DNA of 25,135 nucleotides, from IMG/VR virus record IMGVR_UViG_3300030060_004861, positions 1 to 25,135 of that record; one strand, 5' to 3'. The notes under the pieces are model-generated. The model had not been told where the DNA came from and did not search any database. It saw nothing but the letters and a program-made list of their open reading frames with translations. This document shows, piece by piece, positions 2,292 through 25,135 of this stretch. Origin of the DNA: a virus. Position 1 is the stretch's first letter. Every line of letters starts with the position of its first letter. The translations under genes and the position numbers were made by a program.

Positions 2292-2550
2292 ATTTTAAGT
2301 TTATATTAGTAATAACATCTTTGATACCTGTAAATACAGTCCCTACTTCATCATCCTTTTCAAATATACGCTTGCTATCTATTTCATAAATTTTATTTTG
2401 AGCAGATTTTACTTGTACAATAAACTGTTCCATGTTCATTGATACATCACTTAACTCATCATCTACCCTTTCTATCTTACGTAATAAATTTATAATTACA
2501 AAGATGCAGACTATTAATAAAATTGATAAAATAACTATTGCTTCCATCAT
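2260..2550 (-). CDS. Small membrane-anchored coiled-coil protein
   Basis: A 96-residue protein with one strong N-terminal hydrophobic helix (about residues 3-23) followed by a charged, heptad-like segment (about 24-62). The start ATG at 2550 overlaps the HD hydrolase stop as ATGA, and the 3' end overlaps the sigma gene. The topology suggests an inner-membrane protein with a soluble helical domain. I do not recognise a family. The position between an HD enzyme and the late sigma factor suggests membership of a conserved expression block rather than a known function. Confidence 0.7.
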   Translation of the reverse strand: MMEAIVILSILLIVCIFVIINLLRKIERVDDELSDVSMNMEQFIVQVKSAQNKIYEIDSKRIFEKDDEVGTVFTGIKDVITNINLKYDIEETKNEK

Positions 2551-3311
2551 TTAGCATCTCCAAATAAATCCTTAAATAAATCTTTTGCAGAATCAGTTGC
2601 ACCTGATACAGTTTTAGAATTAGAAGCTTTACGAGCTACCTTTTTTGTTTCTTTAACTACAGTAGAAGAATCAGATTTCCACATTTCATATTCTATTTGA
2701 CTTGCCATATGATCAGCATGATGTAAAATAATAGGTAAGTTTATTCTCATTCTTGATTCAGGTCTAAATGCTACAAAGTAAGGTTTATTAGAATCATCAT
2801 AAAGTCCATCATGTAACTTTATACCCATCATTTCATTTTGATTGAACGTTATACCGAACTCGTTAAGTAATAGTAAAGATCTATCAGGTACAGACATAAA
2901 AGGGATATCAGGATTAATCTCATATATCTTACCTTGGTTCTTTCTATGCCACTCTGAAGGATTAGGTTTATACATTTCAAACTCTTGTGTACCTACTTTA
3001 CCAAGGTCATGATTAAGAGCTGCAAACATTAATTCTTCATATGTATAACCTGAACAATCTGAACCCATATCTTTCCATGAATGGTAAACTTTATGAGCAC
3101 AATCCATTACTCTAATAATATGATCAACATAACCTCCAGCGAAACAATTATGAAAATGCTCAAAGCTTGATGCAGGCATTAACATCATTCTATCTTGAAA
3201 AAACTCATACATCTCTATAAGTTTCTTTCTACGTGGGTCTGCAAAATTACCGTTAATCTTTTCTATTAACGTTTCCCAATTTTCTGCTATTTTATTTTCA
3301 TCTAGATGCAT
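2547..3311 (-). CDS. HD-domain phosphohydrolase
   Basis: A 254-residue protein with the HD metal-site signature AALNHDLGK at about residues 97-105 (H101, D102). Upstream histidines in EHFHNCFAGGYVDHI (about 51-65) and a later HHADHMAS complete the usual ligand set. HD enzymes hydrolyse phosphate esters of nucleotides or nucleic acids; in phages they are often found near DNA-metabolism genes, but the substrate here cannot be read from sequence. The last 35 residues are lysine- and serine-rich and look disordered. The start at 3311 overlaps the end of the upstream lytic gene by 14 bases, and the stop overlaps the next start, so the block is one operon. Confidence 0.85.
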   Translation of the reverse strand: MHLDENKIAENWETLIEKINGNFADPRRKKLIEMYEFFQDRMMLMPASSFEHFHNCFAGGYVDHIIRVMDCAHKVYHSWKDMGSDCSGYTYEELMFAALNHDLGKVGTQEFEMYKPNPSEWHRKNQGKIYEINPDIPFMSVPDRSLLLLNEFGITFNQNEMMGIKLHDGLYDDSNKPYFVAFRPESRMRINLPIILHHADHMASQIEYEMWKSDSSTVVKETKKVARKASNSKTVSGATDSAKDLFKDLFGDAK

Positions 3312-5225: not shown

Positions 5226-5855
5226 TTAGTCCATTTTGAAAATATAACTATGCATAGTAATATTTCCATGTTTTTTAATTCTATGTTCAAAGGTTACTTC
5301 GTTACTTCGAAGTACACGTTCTTTGAATCTATCTAGAGCATCTAAATTGGAAGAAGTAATAGCGATATATCCGTCTAAAATTTCTACCTTAGGTGTTCTA
5401 TGTATTCTATTATAAATATCATCGTGATGTATTTTTTTACCATCAGCGACTCTAAAAATTGTTTGATCTAGTTTTTTATCTGATAGTGTTGATAGCCACG
5501 AATAAAACTTATCTGGTTCAACATAATATTCTTTATCAGCTTTATTAAGCATATTCCATAACATATTTGGATTGCTCTCTGTAAACTCATAAATTAATTT
5601 ATCGAGTTTATTTAGATCTGATGTTGTAAGCTGTTTTAGAATCTGAATAATATTATCAATCTTGCCCGAATTACTTTTAATACTTTGAGATTGATTAATA
5701 GCACTAGATACACTTACATGCATATCTTTTATATATGATGGATCAAATCCTTGAGCGAAGTCATCTGCCTCTTCTTGAGTATACTGGAATAATTGTAAAG
5801 CGTCGTTACCACTTAACAAATCTTCTGTCGTAAAAAAATTAGTTACATCACTCAT
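5226..5855 (-). CDS. Hypothetical protein, 209 aa
   Basis: A soluble, moderately acidic protein with no motif I recognise. I chose ATG 5855 rather than ATG 5867 because AGGA lies six bases before the inner ATG and within the outer start. A helical N-terminal part (to about residue 125) is followed by a beta-rich tail that begins near KIHHDDIYNRIH and ends EHRIKKHGNITMHSYIFKMD. It lies directly downstream of the tmRNA and just upstream of hsp20. No function is proposed. Confidence 0.7.
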   Translation of the reverse strand: MSDVTNFFTTEDLLSGNDALQLFQYTQEEADDFAQGFDPSYIKDMHVSVSSAINQSQSIKSNSGKIDNIIQILKQLTTSDLNKLDKLIYEFTESNPNMLWNMLNKADKEYYVEPDKFYSWLSTLSDKKLDQTIFRVADGKKIHHDDIYNRIHRTPKVEILDGYIAITSSNLDALDRFKERVLRSNEVTFEHRIKKHGNITMHSYIFKMD

Positions 5856-5879
5856 GTTAATCCTCATTTTATTTTTACC

Positions 5880-6105
5880 ATCTTACCACCGAGGTTTTTA
5901 CGACATGACCTCCGTTTGCCGTTTGGTATGAGTACCTATCTAGGCAGCCATCGCCATTTCAACTTGTTCGCCAGTTAATTGCGGTTGACCTTCCTTATAC
6001 CCTTACTACCTGTCAATACCATTCACCCCCATATCGTGAATATTATTTAGTGGAGGTGCCGGGAATCGAACCCGGGTCCAGATTAGCAGCTAATACAAGT
6101 ACTAG
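5880..6105 (-). ncRNA. ssrA: Circularly permuted tmRNA (ssrA)
   Basis: tmRNA frees stalled ribosomes: it is charged with alanine and supplies a short tag frame. On the minus strand the 3' half comes first: P2 3' strand (6088-6079), T-arm CCGGG-TTCGAAT-type loop-CCCGG (6075-6059) and CACCTCC plus discriminator A (6058-6051). After 20 bases the 5' half begins: GGGGGTG (6030-6024), ATGGTATTGACAGG, P2 5' strand (6012-6004), then a tag frame ending GEQVEMAMAA with TAG at 5942-5940. GGGGGTG and CACCTCC pair fully, with a G-U at the third pair, the alanine identity element. CAGGTAGTA pairs with TGCTAATCTG around one bulge. Downstream GAGGT (5912-5908)/ACCTC (5895-5891) looks like a pseudoknot stem. 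CCA is not encoded. Outer ends are approximate. The tag with a glycine resume codon fits Bacteroidota tags. Confidence 0.88.
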
Positions 6106-6122
6106 CGGTCACATATAAATAT

Positions 6123-6506
6123 CTATTTAGAGTTCAAAATCTTTTGAATACCTAAATGTTTCTTATAAATTTTATTAACTACATTCATACTGGATTTAGA
6201 TAATGTATTCGTAGAAACTAATTTAGATTTTATATTAAAGATCTTATTTTTATCTTCCTGATATTCTGCTTCAGAAAAATTATTATAACCTTTACTCTTT
6301 AAGATATTATCTTTTATTAAGGATACTACAGACATTAATTTATCTATCTCTTTAGCTTTATCTAAATTTTCGAACGCAGCAAAAATATTCTCTATCGCAC
6401 TAGCTTGTTCAGGATTTCTTCTACCTAAATCTCTTAATGCTTCTTCATGATCTTTCATACGTAAAAGCTCATCAGCTAAATATTTTAGTTTCTTTTTAAC
6501 GTCCAT
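6123..6506 (-). CDS. Hypothetical helical protein upstream of tmRNA
   Basis: A 127-residue, lysine-rich and wholly helical-looking protein with possible coiled coils around DEEALRDLGRRNPEQ and KAKEIDKLMSVVSLIKDNI. It has no recognised motif. A host-type promoter (6604-6634) lies about 100 bases upstream, and the permuted tmRNA follows about 20 bases after its stop, so the two are likely made from one transcript. Nothing ties the protein to trans-translation; it does not look like SmpB. The start ATG 6506 lacks a clear Shine-Dalgarno. Confidence 0.65.
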   Translation of the reverse strand: MDVKKKLKYLADELLRMKDHEEALRDLGRRNPEQASAIENIFAAFENLDKAKEIDKLMSVVSLIKDNILKSKGYNNFSEAEYQEDKNKIFNIKSKLVSTNTLSKSSMNVVNKIYKKHLGIQKILNSK

Positions 6507-8574: not shown

Positions 8575-8601
8575 AGTGTTTATTTTTTAATTATTATAAT
8601 A

Positions 8602-8632
8602 TAAATATAAGAACTTTATCTCGGGTTTCCAA
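8602..8632 (-). promoter_or_regulatory. Host-type promoter for 8574 gene
   Basis: TTG (8632-8630), 20 bases, TATATTTA (8609-8602). Leader of about 27 bases to ATG 8574. Upstream AACTG-type sequence precedes the TTG, as in several others of the family. Confidence 0.8.
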
Positions 8633-8650
8633 CTGTTACACCAGTTATTT

Positions 8651-8779: not shown

Positions 8780-8808
8780 AGTGTGTAATATTAATTATTT
8801 ATATACTA

Positions 8809-8839
8809 TAAATATAAGAACTATTTTTCAGAATTCCAA
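8809..8839 (-). promoter_or_regulatory. Host-type promoter for 42-aa gene
   Basis: TTG (8839-8837), 20 bases, TATATTTA (8816-8809), about 29 bases before ATG 8779. Its TTG end abuts the 3' end of the SWIM gene. Confidence 0.8.
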
Positions 8840-8843
8840 CTGT

Positions 8844-9053
8844 TTACACGAAAAGTTTTTCACGAAGTCTAGTAATATGCTTACATTGTCCTCTTCTAAA
8901 CTGACTAGCAGGGCAAGTACAAGAGAACGTTTCTCTCAGTACGTTTCTTGTTACAGTATAGTATTTACGTTTGCCAGTTTTCTTATCAATAGAACCCATC
9001 TCAGAGTATTTAGCCCAAGGGTTCTCCTGTCGCATTCTATCTATCCAATCCAT
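8844..9053 (-). CDS. Small SWIM zinc-finger protein
   Basis: A 69-residue protein with C45-x-C47-x9-C57-x-H59 in the context ETFSCTCPASQFRRGQCKHI. This is the CxCxnCxH signature of the SWIM zinc finger, normally a DNA- or protein-binding module inside larger proteins such as SWI/SNF enzymes and MuDR transposases. Here it makes up most of the protein. The N-terminus (MDWIDRMRQENPWAKYSEMG) is helical. Its start overlaps the upstream stop as TAATG, so it depends on translation of the 9056-9412 gene. A role as a small host- or phage-DNA binding factor is plausible but inferred. Confidence 0.82.
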   Translation of the reverse strand: MDWIDRMRQENPWAKYSEMGSIDKKTGKRKYYTVTRNVLRETFSCTCPASQFRRGQCKHITRLREKLFV

Positions 9054-9412: not shown

Positions 9413-9439
9413 AGTGTATAATTATTGATTTATATACTA

Positions 9440-9470
9440 TAAATATAAGAACTATTTCTCAGGTTTCCAA
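9440..9470 (-). promoter_or_regulatory. Host-type promoter for 9412 gene
   Basis: TTG (9470-9468), 20 bases, TATATTTA (9447-9440). Leader about 27 bases. Confidence 0.8.
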
Positions 9471-9503
9471 CTGTTTAGAGGATTATTTCTAAAAAAGTTT
9501 AGG

Positions 9504-9580: not shown

Positions 9581-9586
9581 ATATAG

Positions 9587-9672
9587 TAGTCGGAGTGGGA
9601 TTCGAACCCACACGAGCTATTCAGCTCAACAGATTTTAAGTCTGTCATGTCTACCAATTTCATCATCCGACC
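9587..9672 (-). tRNA. tRNA-Leu (anticodon UAA)
   Basis: A class II tRNA: acceptor GGTCGGA/TCCGACT (with a G-U first pair), D-arm containing TTGGTAGA, anticodon stem ACAGA/TCTGT with loop CTTAAAA giving anticodon TAA, variable arm GAGC/GCTC, T-arm GTGGG-TTCGAAT-CCCAC and discriminator A. CCA is not encoded. It reads UUA, the expected leucine codon in such AT-rich genes, so it probably supports phage translation. Confidence 0.93.
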
Positions 9673-10693: not shown

Positions 10694-11845
10694 TTATTCA
10701 GCGGAATCCTCGCTTTCTACATTAAATAAGTCATCTGTATTGGCATCCGTAGGAATATACTTCTGAACGATCTGCTTAACGAATGTTCTCTCGCTATCTA
10801 GACCTCCTGCGTTGTCATACTGTGGGTATATAAGTACCGTAGCAGCCTCCTCGATAGTAAAGCCATCATATATAAGACCAGCCATCTCAACTGATGCACG
10901 TGTCGATATATGTGTACTAATACGTGGTGCCTCAGTACCTATCTCAGTACGTGTGTCGCCTACTATACCACTGATAGCATCTATAGCGTCTGTATCTAGA
11001 TTAGGATAAAGGTATCGCAAAAGCTCAGCCTCTTCAGTCTTCGCAAGCACATCCATCTCTACTATAATGAAACGGTCTATTAGAGCTCTATCCATTACTC
11101 TAGTAGCTGTATACTCGTTTCCGATATTCGCAGTAGCAATGAACGTCACGCCTTTCGCAACCTTAATAGTAGGAGCACCTTCAGCCTCATCTAGCCTTAG
11201 ATACCTTTGTCCTTCATCTAATACAGTCATTAGTATATTATGAGCTTCCGGATGGGCACGGCTCAACTCATCTAAAAGGATCACAGCATTCTCAGTCTGG
11301 ATAGCTTTAACAAATAATGCCTCCGAGAATACAGTCCCATCCTCCTTATTGAAGTGGGTATTACCTATAAGAGTAGCTCGCGGGTCTTGCGTAGCACCTA
11401 GGTTAAAATAGAAGTCCGGTCTCTCAAGAGCATTTACAACCGACTTCGCAGCCATAGTCTTACCACAACCAGCCGGGCCAGTCATCATAATATTCTTACC
11501 TCTCATAGCGCAACGCATAAGGTACTTCCACTTGATATCAGTCATCTTCATAACTTCAGGACGAAGTTCAGGTGACTTCTGAATAAACGACATAAGCTCT
11601 AACTGCTCTTCTGGTACGTCTACCGGAGCGTTAGCCTCATCAATCATACGATCCATAGTCTTGTTATCAATCTTAGACCATTTACCGTTTTCTAGTATAA
11701 AGCTCATATCGTCATCAAACGCTTTCTGAGCTGTATTTTTCCATAAGGCAGGGTGATCATGTCCTGCTGTGTTAAATGGTACTATCCTTCCATCTTGATC
11801 TACTGCAGTTAGCTTTCCTAACTGATTTGTAATTTTTACTAACAT
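10694..11845 (-). CDS. MoxR-family AAA+ ATPase
   Basis: A 383-residue AAA+ protein with Walker A GPAGCGKT (about 123-130), Walker B AVILLDE (about 187-193), sensor-1 ATAN (about 237-240) and an arginine-rich DRALIDRF segment (about 252-259). The insert GNTHFNKEDGTVFSEALF is typical of the MoxR/CbbQ/CobS clade. These ATPases form rings and remodel or load metal centres into targets together with a VWA-domain partner. That partner is present at 14361-16337. The first 100 residues (HPALWKNTAQKAF and onward) are extra to the core and may be a substrate module. It has its own promoter (11875-11905), an ACACTATG leader without Shine-Dalgarno, and is more G+C-rich than its partner gene. Confidence 0.9.
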   Translation of the reverse strand: MLVKITNQLGKLTAVDQDGRIVPFNTAGHDHPALWKNTAQKAFDDDMSFILENGKWSKIDNKTMDRMIDEANAPVDVPEEQLELMSFIQKSPELRPEVMKMTDIKWKYLMRCAMRGKNIMMTGPAGCGKTMAAKSVVNALERPDFYFNLGATQDPRATLIGNTHFNKEDGTVFSEALFVKAIQTENAVILLDELSRAHPEAHNILMTVLDEGQRYLRLDEAEGAPTIKVAKGVTFIATANIGNEYTATRVMDRALIDRFIIVEMDVLAKTEEAELLRYLYPNLDTDAIDAISGIVGDTRTEIGTEAPRISTHISTRASVEMAGLIYDGFTIEEAATVLIYPQYDNAGGLDSERTFVKQIVQKYIPTDANTDDLFNVESEDSAE

Positions 11846-12263: not shown

Positions 12264-12290
12264 AATTTTAATATCTTTTTATTTATAATA

Positions 12291-12321
12291 TAAATATAAG
12301 AACAATTCTGCAGGGAGGCAA
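12291..12321 (-). promoter_or_regulatory. Host-type promoter for 12263 gene
   Basis: TTG (12321-12319), 20 bases, TATATTTA (12298-12291). Upstream is a tandem 12-base repeat GGGAAATAGTTG (two copies back to back), the second giving the TTG. Leader about 27 bases. Confidence 0.82.
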
Positions 12322-12344
12322 CTATTTCCCCAACTATTTCCCAG

Positions 12345-14360: not shown

Positions 14361-16337
14361 TTATCTCTCAATAAAAGTTTTATTCAACGTTTTAGTCAAA
14401 GGAATCAATTCAGTTACTCCAACATAAGCAGTAGAATCTTTTCCGTATTTTTTATCGAATGATGCTCTAGATCTATCACCAAGATTATTACCATCGATAA
14501 AGTAGCTCAATACTTTAATACCAGCAGCTTTCATATTCATTACTTGCTTTCTAGTATGAGTATCAGCAGAATCACCATAGTAACAAAATGCACCAGACTC
14601 GAAGTAAGGTTCACCATCACTAAAGTTAATAAAGTATTTATCAGTAGACTTATCACCCATTCCAGCAATCTTATCCTGAATAGCTTCGAAGCATAATCCA
14701 GCAGGAGTAGTACCACCAGCTCTCAAATGCTTGAATATCTGAGTAATTTTAGAGAACTTATCTTTTCTAGAATCGTAAGCAATCATCATAAGAGGCTTAA
14801 CATTATTATTATCACCACAAATACTTCGGTAGCTAATTACTACATTCATATTATTAGTCATACTAGCAGCTTTAGCAATAGCAACAGCAGCTATTTGAGC
14901 ATTCTTCCATCTTTCACCACCCATAGATCCAGAAGCATCGATAGATAAGTGAAGACATACATCGTTATGACTAGAAGTCAATACTTTTTGAAATACAGCT
15001 TCAGCACCGTAACCTAGACTAGCAACAGCTCTTCTATCTAATTTACCAGTTCTTAAACGATTATACTTAAGAGTATTAGCTTGATTACGAACTTCTAATT
15101 TTCTACCTAACATAGTACCTAATCTAACACCTCTATTAATCGTATCCTGCTGCTCGTTAGCTCTCTTGATACCATACTCAGAACCATCATAAAGTAAGCA
15201 ATCGTAAACATTAGCATCAATAAGCTCTTTATTGAATTTCTCAACAACGATACAATCTACTGAAGGCTTTTTCCAAGCATTCCAGTTACCGTTAGCACCT
15301 TTACCAACTTCTACAGCAGAAGCTCCTGACTTACTAATAGCCTCAACTTTCTTCTTATCAGCTTTAGACATTCTAGACTTCTTAACGCTACCGTTCATAA
15401 AGTCTTTCTGCTTTCTAACAGCGTTATTAAGCATACCTTTTTCTCTTTGAGTAAGCTCAACATCACCTCCATTACCACTTTTAGCTTCTTCACCTTCAGC
15501 AGTAGATCCATCATCATTAGACTTACCTTCAGGAGTTTTAGATTCTTTACCTTGACCTTTCTCGCCATTCTCGCAAGTATCATCACAAGGACTTTTATCT
15601 TCTTCTTTTTCAGCTTTAGCAGCCTTAACATTAGTATCAATAATCTTATAGATCTCTTTAGCTACAAATAAAGCATCTTCACTAGTCTTAAGAGCAGAAA
15701 TATTACCAAGATCTAATACATTCCAGATATCTCTCAATCCTTTAAGAGCATCTAGATCTCTATTCTTATTAGTAATATTGATAAGTCTGAACATATAAGA
15801 TTCCCAATCTTCAGTTCTATATTCAGTAGATCTAAGACCTTTATCGATAGCTTTCGAGTTAAAGTACTTATCGTACATTGAATCGTAATAAGGTCTATAA
15901 CCAGGAGCAGAAGTATAGATAAAGTTATCTATTCTTCTATCTTCTACTACATTCAAGATATCTTTCACTTTCATCTTTACAGCCCAAGAATCACCATCTT
16001 CAACTAGATCATTAACGTGAGTAGCAAGATTATTTAACAATTTGAAATCAGATAATTTAATATGAGAACCTTCGTGAAGAGCTAAACCAACAGTAGCATC
16101 GAAGTTATTATCTTTTACATTAGCAGAAATAGTAACTTTCTTACCATCAGTAAAAGAATCACTTCCTTCGAACTTTACAGGAATACTCTGACCAGTTACA
16201 ATCTGAACAAAATTACCTACAGCTCTCAAAGTAGAAGCTAATTTTACATAATCCTTACCTTCTGATACTTTACCAGTTAATACATCTTCGTTAGAGTTCC
16301 AGTCTCCTAACCAAAAATTTGAATGCGATCTAAACAT
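14361..16337 (-). CDS. VWA-domain protein with HExxH metallopeptidase-like domain (MoxR partner)
   Basis: A 658-residue protein in three parts. The N-terminal part contains LALHEGSHIKLSD (HEGSH about residues 88-92) and, 40 residues later, NVVEDRRIDN, the HExxH plus E/D pattern of metallopeptidase-like domains found with VWA domains in CobT-type proteins. The middle (about 235-335) is low-complexity, rich in Lys, Glu, Gly and Ser. The C-terminal VWA domain has a complete MIDAS: DASGS (about 467-471), a threonine in GGTTPAG and FSDGEP. Such proteins act with MoxR AAA+ ATPases as a chaperone pair. The matching ATPase is at 10694-11845. Length is in the range of CobT. It leads a nine-gene operon from the promoter at 16364-16394. 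Confidence 0.85.
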   Translation of the reverse strand: MFRSHSNFWLGDWNSNEDVLTGKVSEGKDYVKLASTLRAVGNFVQIVTGQSIPVKFEGSDSFTDGKKVTISANVKDNNFDATVGLALHEGSHIKLSDFKLLNNLATHVNDLVEDGDSWAVKMKVKDILNVVEDRRIDNFIYTSAPGYRPYYDSMYDKYFNSKAIDKGLRSTEYRTEDWESYMFRLINITNKNRDLDALKGLRDIWNVLDLGNISALKTSEDALFVAKEIYKIIDTNVKAAKAEKEEDKSPCDDTCENGEKGQGKESKTPEGKSNDDGSTAEGEEAKSGNGGDVELTQREKGMLNNAVRKQKDFMNGSVKKSRMSKADKKKVEAISKSGASAVEVGKGANGNWNAWKKPSVDCIVVEKFNKELIDANVYDCLLYDGSEYGIKRANEQQDTINRGVRLGTMLGRKLEVRNQANTLKYNRLRTGKLDRRAVASLGYGAEAVFQKVLTSSHNDVCLHLSIDASGSMGGERWKNAQIAAVAIAKAASMTNNMNVVISYRSICGDNNNVKPLMMIAYDSRKDKFSKITQIFKHLRAGGTTPAGLCFEAIQDKIAGMGDKSTDKYFINFSDGEPYFESGAFCYYGDSADTHTRKQVMNMKAAGIKVLSYFIDGNNLGDRSRASFDKKYGKDSTAYVGVTELIPLTKTLNKTFIER

Positions 16338-16363
16338 ATCTTATAGCGTTTTTATTTATAATA

Positions 16364-16394
16364 TAAATATAAGAACTATTTCTCGGGGAGGCAA
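16364..16394 (-). promoter_or_regulatory. Host-type promoter for VWA operon
   Basis: TTG (16394-16392), 20 bases, TATATTTA (16371-16364), 26 bases before ATG 16337. Upstream GGAAATAACTGTGGAAATAG carries the extended dyad element. Confidence 0.83.
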
Positions 16395-16406
16395 CTATTT
16401 CCACAG

Positions 16407-16457
16407 TTATTTCCAAACTTTTTTAATAATAAATCCTCCTAATAGCACTAATAACAT
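16407..16457 (-). CDS. Possible leaderless micro-ORF, 16 aa
   Basis: ATG 16457 lies three bases after the promoter box at 16468-16461, the same geometry as the genes starting at 8003 and 17645. The frame MLLVLLGGFIIKKVWK ends TAA at 16407, inside the extended element of the next promoter. It could encode a tiny membrane peptide or be only a transcript leader. Weakly supported. Confidence 0.28.
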   Translation of the reverse strand: MLLVLLGGFIIKKVWK

Positions 16458-22421: not shown

Positions 22422-23579
22422 TTAAAAAATTACGTAGTTAACTCCTACGCTGAAATCATGCCAGTTACGATTCCAATATTTGTTATACTTTCCTTCTAGA
22501 AATATTCCTAAACTTTTATTAAACTTATAACCAAATATTAATCCACCTGAATAATCAAGCCACTGTCCATTATTATATGCATGATAAGAAAACTCATCAC
22601 CATCATCATAATGATATGGCATTAAATTACCCCATGAGTGTACCCAAAAATCTTTTGTATAATGATAGAAATCAAACCCAATAACTAACGAGTATTCGAG
22701 TGTCTGATCTAATTCACTTCTCTTTTTCTCTGTATAATTAGATAATGCTTCAGGTATAACTACACCTTCCCATATCTGAGTATTTTCAGCAACTAAATTA
22801 CCAGAAGGATCATAATAAGTAACGCCTCCTTCACCATCAAATTGAACTGAATATCCTTCTTGAATAGCTAGTTCTGTATAATGTAAATTACCATTAGATA
22901 ATAACCACTCCTCTAGAGGATCATAACCATAAGGTTCAGATAATCTTTGTACAGTACCAATATTTAATGATAATTTATTACCTAACTTTTGTCTATATCT
23001 CTGTGAAAATTCAAAGAACTGAATATCAGCAAACCCATCTTGCATGTATTCTACTTTAGCTATCCATCTATTACCAACATATCTTAAAAAGTGATGTTGA
23101 TTCAAAAAGTTAGTACCTTGTTGTCTAGTATAATCACCTTCAAATAAAAATTCAAACCCTTTTATTTTACCGATAGTAGCAGCATCAGAAAATGATTTTT
23201 CAGTACCATCATAAAATACATTAGCTCTATTTTCATATCCTAATCTAGCGATTTTTCTTACTCCGAAAGTAATAGAATAGTCAAAAGGAGTTTTTACTGT
23301 ATTAGTTTCTAATCCATTTGTAACTGAATAAATATCAACATCAGATATCGAGTTACCTCCATTTACCGCTCCATAAAACGTAGCAAATTTTAATAGATCT
23401 TTTTTTATAAAATCCTTAACTTTGTTTTGTTTTTTACTAGGTGCTGGTCCAAATTTAGGTTGTTGTGCATGAGCACAGCTAGAAATTAACATAAAGAAAG
23501 TTAATATTACTAACCCTAAGAAAGCAGCTACTTTTCTTCGACAGCTTTCTTTATATTGTTTTGGTGTTCTCTCTGTCAT
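22422..23579 (-). CDS. Outer-membrane beta-barrel protein
   Basis: A 385-residue protein with an N-terminal signal (LVILTFFMLISSCAHAQQ; either cleavage after AHA or a lipobox at ISSC), an acidic/basic linker, then many alternating aromatic strands (YSITFGVRKIARLGYENRANVFY, FEFLFEGDYTRQ, IAKVEYMQDGF, SGGLIFGYKFNKSLGIFLEGKYNKYW) ending GVNYVIF. The C-terminal phenylalanine is the usual barrel-assembly signal. Phage-encoded barrels can alter host receptor access or block superinfection; no specific function is visible. Its ATG overlaps the stop of the T9SS cargo gene as ATGA, so the two are co-translated. Confidence 0.75.
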   Translation of the reverse strand: MTERTPKQYKESCRRKVAAFLGLVILTFFMLISSCAHAQQPKFGPAPSKKQNKVKDFIKKDLLKFATFYGAVNGGNSISDVDIYSVTNGLETNTVKTPFDYSITFGVRKIARLGYENRANVFYDGTEKSFSDAATIGKIKGFEFLFEGDYTRQQGTNFLNQHHFLRYVGNRWIAKVEYMQDGFADIQFFEFSQRYRQKLGNKLSLNIGTVQRLSEPYGYDPLEEWLLSNGNLHYTELAIQEGYSVQFDGEGGVTYYDPSGNLVAENTQIWEGVVIPEALSNYTEKKRSELDQTLEYSLVIGFDFYHYTKDFWVHSWGNLMPYHYDDGDEFSYHAYNNGQWLDYSGGLIFGYKFNKSLGIFLEGKYNKYWNRNWHDFSVGVNYVIF

Positions 23580-25135
23580 TGCTTAATTACCCTCTTATTA
23601 AATCTTATATTATCATATATAATTATCAAGTTATACACTCCAGAATCGAATCCTGAAAGGTTAATTCTATTATCTTGTGTCTCGATTATCTTTCTTCCTG
23701 CCATATCCCATACTTCAACAGTTACATCTAAATTAGTAACAATATTTAATATATCTGGAGTAGGATTAGGATAAACCATAATAGCTCTTCCATCAATTTC
23801 ATCTATTGAAACAGGCCATCCATTTTGACAGTAATCATACATTGTTTGACATGAAGCATCCCAATCATCTGTACAGCAATAAGAATCTACATCAATTACC
23901 CATGCATAACATCCATCATTCAACCAATATGGAACACCTGGCCCGCCATAACAACCTGCATCATATAAACATGCATCAGGATCACTTACATTTGCAGTTG
24001 GATCATAATTATAAGCTGCTACATCTGTACATCCTGTCACAATAGTTATACAAGAGCCATCATCAAAACATGCATCTGGATCATAATTAAGAGCATCTTC
24101 ATCCATACATCCACTTACATAACAACAAGTATTATCATTTGTATTAGCTAAAGGATCATATGTTATTGAGTTTGGATCTGTACAACCATATATAAATGGA
24201 ACACATGAACCATTATCAGTATTAGCAGTTGGGTCATAATTAAATGATAAAGAATCAGTACAACCGTAAATATATGGTATACATGAGCCGTTATCTGTAT
24301 TAGCATTTGCATCATAATTAAACATCGTTGGATCTGTACATCCGTAGATTGGTAATATACAACTTCCATCATCCTCTGTAGCAATAGGATCAAAATTAAG
24401 TGCTGTATTATCAGTACATCCTAGAACTTCTAATTCATCACAAACTCCATCTCCATCTGTATCTGTTATACATACCCCATAACAATCATAATAAGTAATA
24501 GGATATTGACAGCCATTAGATATTGTTGCAGTTGAATCATAATTACAAGCTGTAATATCCATACATCCAATATAATAACATGAACCGTCATCTACATTAG
24601 CATTTGAATTATAATTATCTGCAGTAGGATCTGTACACCCATTTACTATTGCAACACAAGTTCCATCATCTACATTTGCTAGTGAATCATAATTAAGAGC
24701 GAATTCATTAGTACAACCATAAATAAAAGGAATACAAGTTCCATCATCTACATTTGCATTTGGATTATAATTAAATGAATTTGTATCCATACAACCTAAC
24801 ACTGTTGGAATACAAGTTGTACCACAAAAAGGTATATCAGTATATTTTGTCCAGAATGGAGATTCAAATGATTGTAGAGCTCCTTGACCATTATTTGCAA
24901 AAGGATTAACACCTTCATGCATTAATACAACACCATTTGCATTTGTTAACTTAAATGAATTATGCCATGTTTGGAATTGTACTTCTTGTGGTGGTTGTTG
25001 TGGTCCACCAACTTCAAAATATCTAATCTCAACTGGCACGCCTGGATCTAATATAATATTCCATGAATTACCATAATTACCAGGTCCCATTGTATATGTT
25101 CCAAGATCAATACCATTTTGATATACACCAATAAA
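23576..25135 (-). CDS. Repeat-rich T9SS cargo protein (5' end beyond window)
   Basis: The frame is open through the right edge (15 codons without stop before ATG 25090), so the N-terminus, including any signal peptide, is outside. The visible 519 residues hold about ten copies of a repeat of the form G-C-T/M-D-x-x-A-x-N-Y-D-P-x-A-N-x-D-D-G-S-C, one DTDGDGVCDE calcium-type motif, a cysteine-rich segment (YCCTDDWDASC), and a C-terminal domain VYPNPTPDILNI...VWDMAGRKI...LSGFDSGVYNLII...RFNKRVIKQ. The last is a type A sorting domain of the Bacteroidota type IX secretion system, which exports and anchors proteins on the cell surface. The product would be displayed or secreted by the host machinery. 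Alternatively, the repeats may form a virion fibre. Confidence 0.85.
   Translation of the reverse strand, partial: FIGVYQNGIDLGTYTMGPGNYGNSWNIILDPGVPVEIRYFEVGGPQQPPQEVQFQTWHNSFKLTNANGVVLMHEGVNPFANNGQGALQSFESPFWTKYTDIPFCGTTCIPTVLGCMDTNSFNYNPNANVDDGTCIPFIYGCTNEFALNYDSLANVDDGTCVAIVNGCTDPTADNYNSNANVDDGSCYYIGCMDITACNYDSTATISNGCQYPITYYDCYGVCITDTDGDGVCDELEVLGCTDNTALNFDPIATEDDGSCILPIYGCTDPTMFNYDANANTDNGSCIPYIYGCTDSLSFNYDPTANTDNGSCVPFIYGCTDPNSITYDPLANTNDNTCCYVSGCMDEDALNYDPDACFDDGSCITIVTGCTDVAAYNYDPTANVSDPDACLYDAGCYGGPGVPYWLNDGCYAWVIDVDSYCCTDDWDASCQTMYDYCQNGWPVSIDEIDGRAIMVYPNPTPDILNIVTNLDVTVEVWDMAGRKIIETQDNRINLSGFDSGVYNLIIIYDNIRFNKRVIKQ
24000..24800 (-). repeat. Internal coding repeats of the T9SS cargo
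   Basis: About ten imperfect units of 72-80 bases, each encoding GCTD...NYD...AN.DDGSC. They differ at the DNA level by many substitutions, so they are old. Approximate extent; units begin near 24820 and end near 23960. Confidence 0.7.

Follow-up and report, generated by a model that had tools for sequence, protein, structure and literature searches.

A circularly permuted tmRNA gene in a marine phage, probably derived from a one-piece Bacteroidota tmRNA by a separate permutation

The IMG/VR virus record IMGVR_UViG_3300030060_004861, analysed whole (25,135 bases; the window), carries a circularly permuted tmRNA gene of the two-piece type. The gene is located on the minus strand, as are all main genes of the record, and spans about 215 nt (about 5891–6105). 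It probably descends from a one-piece tmRNA of the Bacteroidota by a permutation of its own, would serve ribosome rescue with two RNAs and appears to behave as a cassette among Bacteroidota phages. The permuted order, a covarying structure, the conservation of the tag, characters of the Bacteroidota type and the presence or absence of the gene among relatives can be read from the sequences directly.

ARAGORN finds a single tmRNA in the record, of the permuted type (5849–6142, minus strand), and reads its tag as GEQVEMAMAA. In an Rfam 15 cmscan of the window against all families, RF04321 (tmRNA_permuted) matches positions 6100–5940 of the minus strand over the full model (1–213) with 70.6 bits (E = 5.9e-12), above the curated cut-off of 47 bits; the one-piece model RF00023 stays below threshold in the window (24.9 bits, cut-off 47). 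No second tmRNA is present in the record. The original prediction, made from the sequence letters, had placed the 3′ acceptor half before the 5′ half, and ARAGORN, RF04321 and covariation agree on this order. It had also named the searches with a covariance model and ARAGORN by which it could be checked, and had considered that the gene might copy a fragment of a one-piece tmRNA elsewhere in the genome. The permuted model does match, and there is no such one-piece tmRNA in the record or in a 153-kb relative (IMGVR_UViG_3300021375_000007, G001), where the other RF00023 match reaches 14.3 bits, far under the cut-off. The predicted 20-base spacer, CACCTCC, the discriminator A and GGGGGTG are all found on the minus strand, with seven acceptor pairs that include G-U at the third pair, and the tag frame is followed by TAG as proposed (Table 1). 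CTA comes next after the discriminator A, at the position of CCA, so that CCA is not encoded in the window gene. The nine proposed P2 pairs with one bulge do exist in the window; seven of them are backed by the comparative set, and a second P2 helix of 7 bp had been missed.

Table 1. Elements of the permuted tmRNA gene and of its flanks in the window
Feature	Position	Strand	Basis
Acceptor piece (3′ half, encoded first)	6051–6105 (5′ end approximate)	minus	ARAGORN 3′ tRNA domain; RF04321 match 6100–5940
T-arm CCGGG-TTCGATT-CCCGG	6059–6075	minus	T-stem pairs 100% kept, two compensated
Acceptor stem, 3′ strand CACCTCC	6052–6058	minus	Discriminator A at 6051
Intervening sequence between the halves, 20 bases	6031–6050	minus	Counted from the discriminator; 17 bases after CTA
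Acceptor stem, 5′ strand GGGGGTG	6024–6030	minus	Pairs with 6052–6058; 100% paired in 18 sequences
Inner P2, coding-piece strand	6006–6012	minus	Pairs with 6079–6086, one bulge
Outer P2, coding-piece strand, 7 bp	5994–6000	minus	Pairs with 6099–6093; four compensated pairs
Tag frame GEQVEMAMAA	5943–5972	minus	ARAGORN
Tag stop codon TAG	5940–5942	minus	ARAGORN
P5-like hairpin, tag stop codon in loop region	5933–5946	minus	Covariation analysis
H-type pseudoknot, 3′ end of coding piece	5891–5922	minus	S1 5922–5918/5904–5900; S2 5912–5908/5895–5891
GATATTTATA, possible promoter core just upstream of the acceptor piece	6114–6123	minus	Conserved in relatives
Upstream flanking gene, 127 aa	6123–6506	minus	PHROGs: no family match
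Downstream flanking gene, 213 aa	5226–5867	minus	No family match

Covariation was analysed in 18 distinct sequences, with the spacer removed and the halves joined, for 41 proposed pairs in the acceptor stem, the T-stem, the two-part P2, the stop-codon hairpin and the H-type pseudoknot. The structure was derived from the window gene and inspected visually in the relatives, and the percentage of cells that pair (96.7%, as compared to 43–48% in slid controls) leans towards the window sequence accordingly. Compensatory changes are stronger evidence than this percentage; changes on both sides are found in 18 pairs (shuffled mean 10.2). The covariation score is 0.347, against 0.157 for shuffled and 0.037–0.087 for slid controls, and none of 500 shuffles reaches the observed value. 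One acceptor pair, formed across the spacer, is C-G in ten sequences, U-A in five and G-C in three. The third acceptor pair (columns 50/56) is U-G in all 18 sequences, as expected for alanine identity. The tRNA-like domain consists of the acceptor stem and the T-arm, without an anticodon arm. Upstream of the tag, no pairing for PK1 was found by inspection; the gap between P2 and the resume codon is 21 nt, which leaves no room for this pseudoknot, a typical element of two-piece tmRNA (PMC3985003). The motif of the 3′ pseudoknot occurs in 11 of 11 sequences of the window family, in none of 30 alphaproteobacterial permuted sequences, in one of 14 other permuted sequences and in 5 of 550 shuffles.

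The minimum free energy of the whole gene is unremarkable (z = −0.56), and the case rests on the covariance model and on covariation rather than on energy. Such a value would suit a degraded fragment or tRNA-like pieces brought together by chance. This reading is ruled out by the cmscan E-value, the covariation in 18 sequences and the synteny, the position being conserved in close relatives, and we give it practically no weight.

The C-terminal AMAA of the tag is constant in the 18 sequences, where its Ala codons vary synonymously only, and the middle of the tag is variable. A stop codon is present in every sequence (11 TAA, 5 TAG and 2 TGA). The frame combines a resume site, this stop codon and a hydrophobic, Ala-rich C-terminus. 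Two members of the family (L253 and L276), also permuted, have tags of about 37 residues by hand translation that still end in AMAA; the tag of L276 reads GKQVKTANASVFALMYAIRSLAKEDVATIEQTVAMAA. For both, ARAGORN gives the final tag residues only. The conservation of the tag indicates selection on the peptide, which argues against a decoy or inhibitor that acts through the tRNA-like domain, similar to the TLD-only RNA of phage DS6A (PMC4131195). Reduced forms do exist in phages (PMC4131195, PMC11915505), and the window gene has neither an encoded CCA nor PK1. However, the C-terminal alanines of the tag are kept by synonymous change, the stop codon is conserved along with the resume site, and even the long-tag variants run towards AMAA; a decoy is thus very unlikely.

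A tmRNA active in ribosome rescue, which we prefer, would be made from a single transcript in which the 3′ half, the acceptor of alanine, precedes the 5′ half that codes for the tag. The spacer would be removed, most likely by host enzymes that act on tRNA ends, to give two RNAs. RNase P would cut directly before the GGGGGTG strand, and the acceptor end would be completed by 3′ trimming and CCA addition, again by host enzymes. The two RNAs would stay joined through the seven acceptor pairs and the two-part P2. The host alanyl-tRNA synthetase is predicted to charge the molecule with alanine, in keeping with the invariant G-U pair. In infected cells, the charged molecule and host SmpB would then rescue stalled ribosomes, and the tag (A)GEQVEMAMAA would be added as a signal for proteolysis. 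The phage would probably benefit from ribosomes kept available late in infection. We infer transcription, processing, charging, tagging and the use of SmpB, as well as the direction of evolution discussed below, from sequence.

This marine virus most likely infects Bacteroidota, in line with the original prediction. The C-terminal domain encoded by ORF 23576–25090 is Por_Secre_tail (PF18962), the T9SS sorting domain typical of Bacteroidota type IX secretion. ORFs 2547–3311, 1500–2291, 748–1083 and 2–751 match Flavobacterium phage immuto in conserved order, and the tRNA-like domain and the resume site of the tmRNA are of the Bacteroidota type. RF04321 has no match in phage immuto, and the T9SS protein has none among plasmids. 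In a scan of genome contigs with the neighbouring AAA protein (10694–11845), the sole cellular match was a 4.4-kb contig (L111, 68% identity) of an Alphaproteobacteria MAG; the MAG's own tmRNA is of the alphaproteobacterial type, and L111 is probably a misbinned phage contig.

Host-type tmRNAs for comparison were collected from contigs that flank proviruses, with the tags GETNYALAA or GENNYALAA as the sole criterion and the 5′ end unconstrained; ARAGORN matches GETNYALAA to the one-piece tmRNAs of Bacteroides fragilis and B. thetaiotaomicron. All nine are one-piece, and all nine have TTTGAC near the 5′ end. TTGAC is found at this site in 13 of 13 rows of the window family (some rows are one sequence in two loci), and TCGAC in 28 of 30 alphaproteobacterial and 14 of 15 other permuted sequences. 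The resume site of the window, TAACTGGCGAA, is identical in four one-piece tmRNAs (L287, L320, L342 and L343); in permuted tmRNAs of other types it is mostly AAACGC or similar. The T-loop is TTCGATT in the window and mostly GGCAGTA or GGCGGTA in Alphaproteobacteria. RF04321 scores the window family at 53–75 bits and alphaproteobacterial sequences at 115–166 bits. The Gly-Glu start of the tag, which had been described as Bacteroidota-like, is indeed that of one-piece host tmRNAs, and none of the marks of the alphaproteobacterial lineage (T-loop GGC[AG]GTA, TCGAC, a tag starting with Ala) is found in the window gene. A tree of the tRNA-like domain (54 columns) sets the alphaproteobacterial sequences apart and resolves the rest poorly; the best identities are 0.79–0.92 for some non-alphaproteobacterial permuted sequences and 0.81–0.92 for the host type.

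Since three segments (the 5′ half, the resume and tag region, and the T-loop) resemble the one-piece tmRNA of Bacteroidota, the permutation would be separate from the alphaproteobacterial one, and the gene probably represents an additional two-piece lineage that arose independently. The original prediction had raised an independent origin, which these characters favour, as they match one-piece Bacteroidota hosts and not the alphaproteobacterial permuted form. Alternatively, the gene could have come from a lineage that was already permuted (that of Alphaproteobacteria or their phages, of Betaproteobacteria or of cyanobacteria) and acquired the Bacteroidota features later. RF04321, built from these three lineages, recognises the window gene; permuted tmRNAs are present in pelagiphage HTVC008M and other marine phages (PMC9004378); and the pre-tag region of L191 (tag ANDNFALAA) is similarly short. 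Against this, the RF04321 score is low, the gene agrees with the one-piece Bacteroidota form in T-loop, TTGAC, resume site and the start of the tag, and none of the 30 alphaproteobacterial sequences has the 3′ pseudoknot. We consider such a source unlikely, on a sampling with at most one betaproteobacterial sequence (phage contig L176) and no cyanobacterial one. We reject an alphaproteobacterial source in particular, in view of the T-loop, TTGAC, the resume site, the pseudoknot and the score.

Relatives of the phage were fetched from viral contigs by the AAA protein and by a DNA pattern of the junction, and twelve related records score above the RF04321 cut-off. L158 and L165, both close relatives, have the tmRNA between homologues of the two flanking genes of Table 1. 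In L171 and L172, with an AAA protein 86% identical, these two genes adjoin about 70 bases apart without a tmRNA. L159–L161 have the tmRNA gene with other neighbours, which points to cassette-like behaviour, and the gene is most likely a small cassette among Bacteroidota phages. More distant relatives (AAA protein 55–67% identical) carry a one-piece tmRNA above the RF00023 cut-off, with tags such as GNTSYAMAA, matched by ARAGORN to Emticicia and Leadbetterella, or EYDYS...YAYAA. Permuted, one-piece and tmRNA-less phages coexist within this one related group. Conversion in place of the one-piece gene of a sister phage is not supported, as the positions in the gene order differ (G017–G019, G025 and G027; G020–G023).

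The permutation may also have arisen in a Bacteroidota bacterium, with phages capturing a gene that was already permuted. The sequence evidence for a Bacteroidota source would be the same in this case, and the host sample is small. Yet the host tmRNAs found by their tags are one-piece without exception, RF04321 has no match in the control genome of Bacteroides ihuae (the sole whole Bacteroidota genome scanned), and the permuted genes of the window type are all on viral records here. A bacterial permutation therefore appears improbable to us, and we favour a permutation separate from the alphaproteobacterial one that may have taken place within phages.

Some other features of these genomes were observed. 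The AAA protein, a MoxR-like ATPase encoded on the minus strand, and a 658-aa protein (14361–16337, minus strand) that weakly matches phage proteins, a peptidase family among them, occur together in many relatives, as well as in Microcystis phage Mel-JY01. A tRNA-Leu (TAA) gene is located at 9586–9672 (minus strand); in some relatives this region has tRNA-Glu or no tRNA gene. The element GATATTTATA is retained at the tmRNA-less site of L171/L172. Ten copies of the motif ATATTTATA are present, each on the coding (minus) strand (3.0 expected on both strands of the window), and the motif may be a promoter core common to the tmRNA and the next gene. Five alike promoter-like elements are located upstream of genes (8600–8650, 8807–8855, 9438–9486, 12289–12337 and 16362–16410, minus strand), each laid out as an AGTTG block, AGTTCTT immediately before ATATTTATA and a TATA-rich stretch.

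A BLAST search of the gene against phage records gave matches in the T-arm only, though these led to further permuted genes in the crAss-like phages cr125_1, cr10_1 and cr50_1 and in Chryseobacterium phage MA9V-3, all with tags that begin GN. Three of the four pass RF04321, with cr125_1 at 46.3 against the cut-off of 47. GenBank annotates these genes as tmRNA or SsrA with the form unstated, and the MA9V-3 paper mentions a tmRNA without its form. The spacers of two crAss-like loci (L226 and L227; 96 and 211 nt) share the T-arm-like GGTCAGAAGCATAGAGGTTCGACTCCTCTTGGCAAGGG, perhaps a remnant tRNA. The annotated tmRNA of Stenotrophomonas phage Marzo (L334), whose host belongs to the Gammaproteobacteria, is also permuted. 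Viral contigs were scanned twice more for a 5′ end of the Bacteroidota type, which yielded 99 loci selected by TTGAC; 53 of these are permuted, 32 one-piece and 14 undecided. Contigs repeat among them and not all are proven Bacteroidota phages, so that the proportions give no more than an indication.

Three main bacterial clades are known to have two-piece tmRNA (PMC11915505). A study of 133 distinct phage tmRNAs classed 53 as two-piece, of which 50 were aquatic, and its tree assigned marine phages to the three known two-piece lineages (PMC9004378). The literature searched, which did not extend to the supplementary tables of PMC11915505 and PMC9004378 (where single listings are possible), contains no description of permuted tmRNA in Bacteroidota phages. 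The suggestion that the form may be undescribed therefore stands to this extent, but it is not confined to this phage, being found in crAss-like phages and MA9V-3, and phages of other hosts were already known to carry two-piece tmRNAs (PMC9004378). We lean towards the view that Bacteroidota phages hold a further two-piece lineage, not described as such, which would stem from a one-piece gene of the Bacteroidota type that was permuted independently, perhaps in a phage, and span marine myophages, crAss-like phages and others. In the members examined there is no room for PK1, and the window family has a 3′ pseudoknot of its own. For the question of how and why a tmRNA gene becomes permuted, an additional phage lineage would offer a natural repeat; with permuted, one-piece and tmRNA-less phages in one related group, the change is open to direct comparison. 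The annotation of tmRNA in Bacteroidota phages, crAss-like phages included, should state the form of the gene.

The permuted tmRNA of Alphaproteobacteria and pelagiphages (RF01849/RF04321) shares with the window gene the order of the halves, a short spacer, the G-U third pair, P2, and a tag with stop codon. It differs in GGC[AG]GTA, TCGAC, the Ala start of the tag and its higher RF04321 score, where the window has TTCGATT, TTGAC, a Gly-Glu tag, the lower score and its own 3′ pseudoknot. The two-piece tmRNAs of phages Melnitz and HTVC008M (PMC9004378) are, like that of the window, phage-borne, permuted and marine; unlike it, the Melnitz tmRNA is of the alphaproteobacterial type (PMC9004378) and the HTVC008M T-loop is alphaproteobacterial-like. 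Melnitz is reported to have a glutamine riboswitch (PMC9004378), and the Rfam cmscan found none in the window. The tmRNAs of the crAss-like phages and MA9V-3 are permuted as well, with a Gly tag start and mostly TTGAC, and cr125_1 has a 3′ pseudoknot similar to that of the window; their spacers are longer (57–211 nt), and their tags (e.g. GNFYVTDYTRIAA) and neighbours are different. The one-piece tmRNA of Bacteroidota shares with the window gene the tRNA-like domain, TTTGAC, the resume site and the Gly-Glu start, and differs in its one-piece order, its length of ~395 nt, a longer pre-tag region and a long 3′ region.
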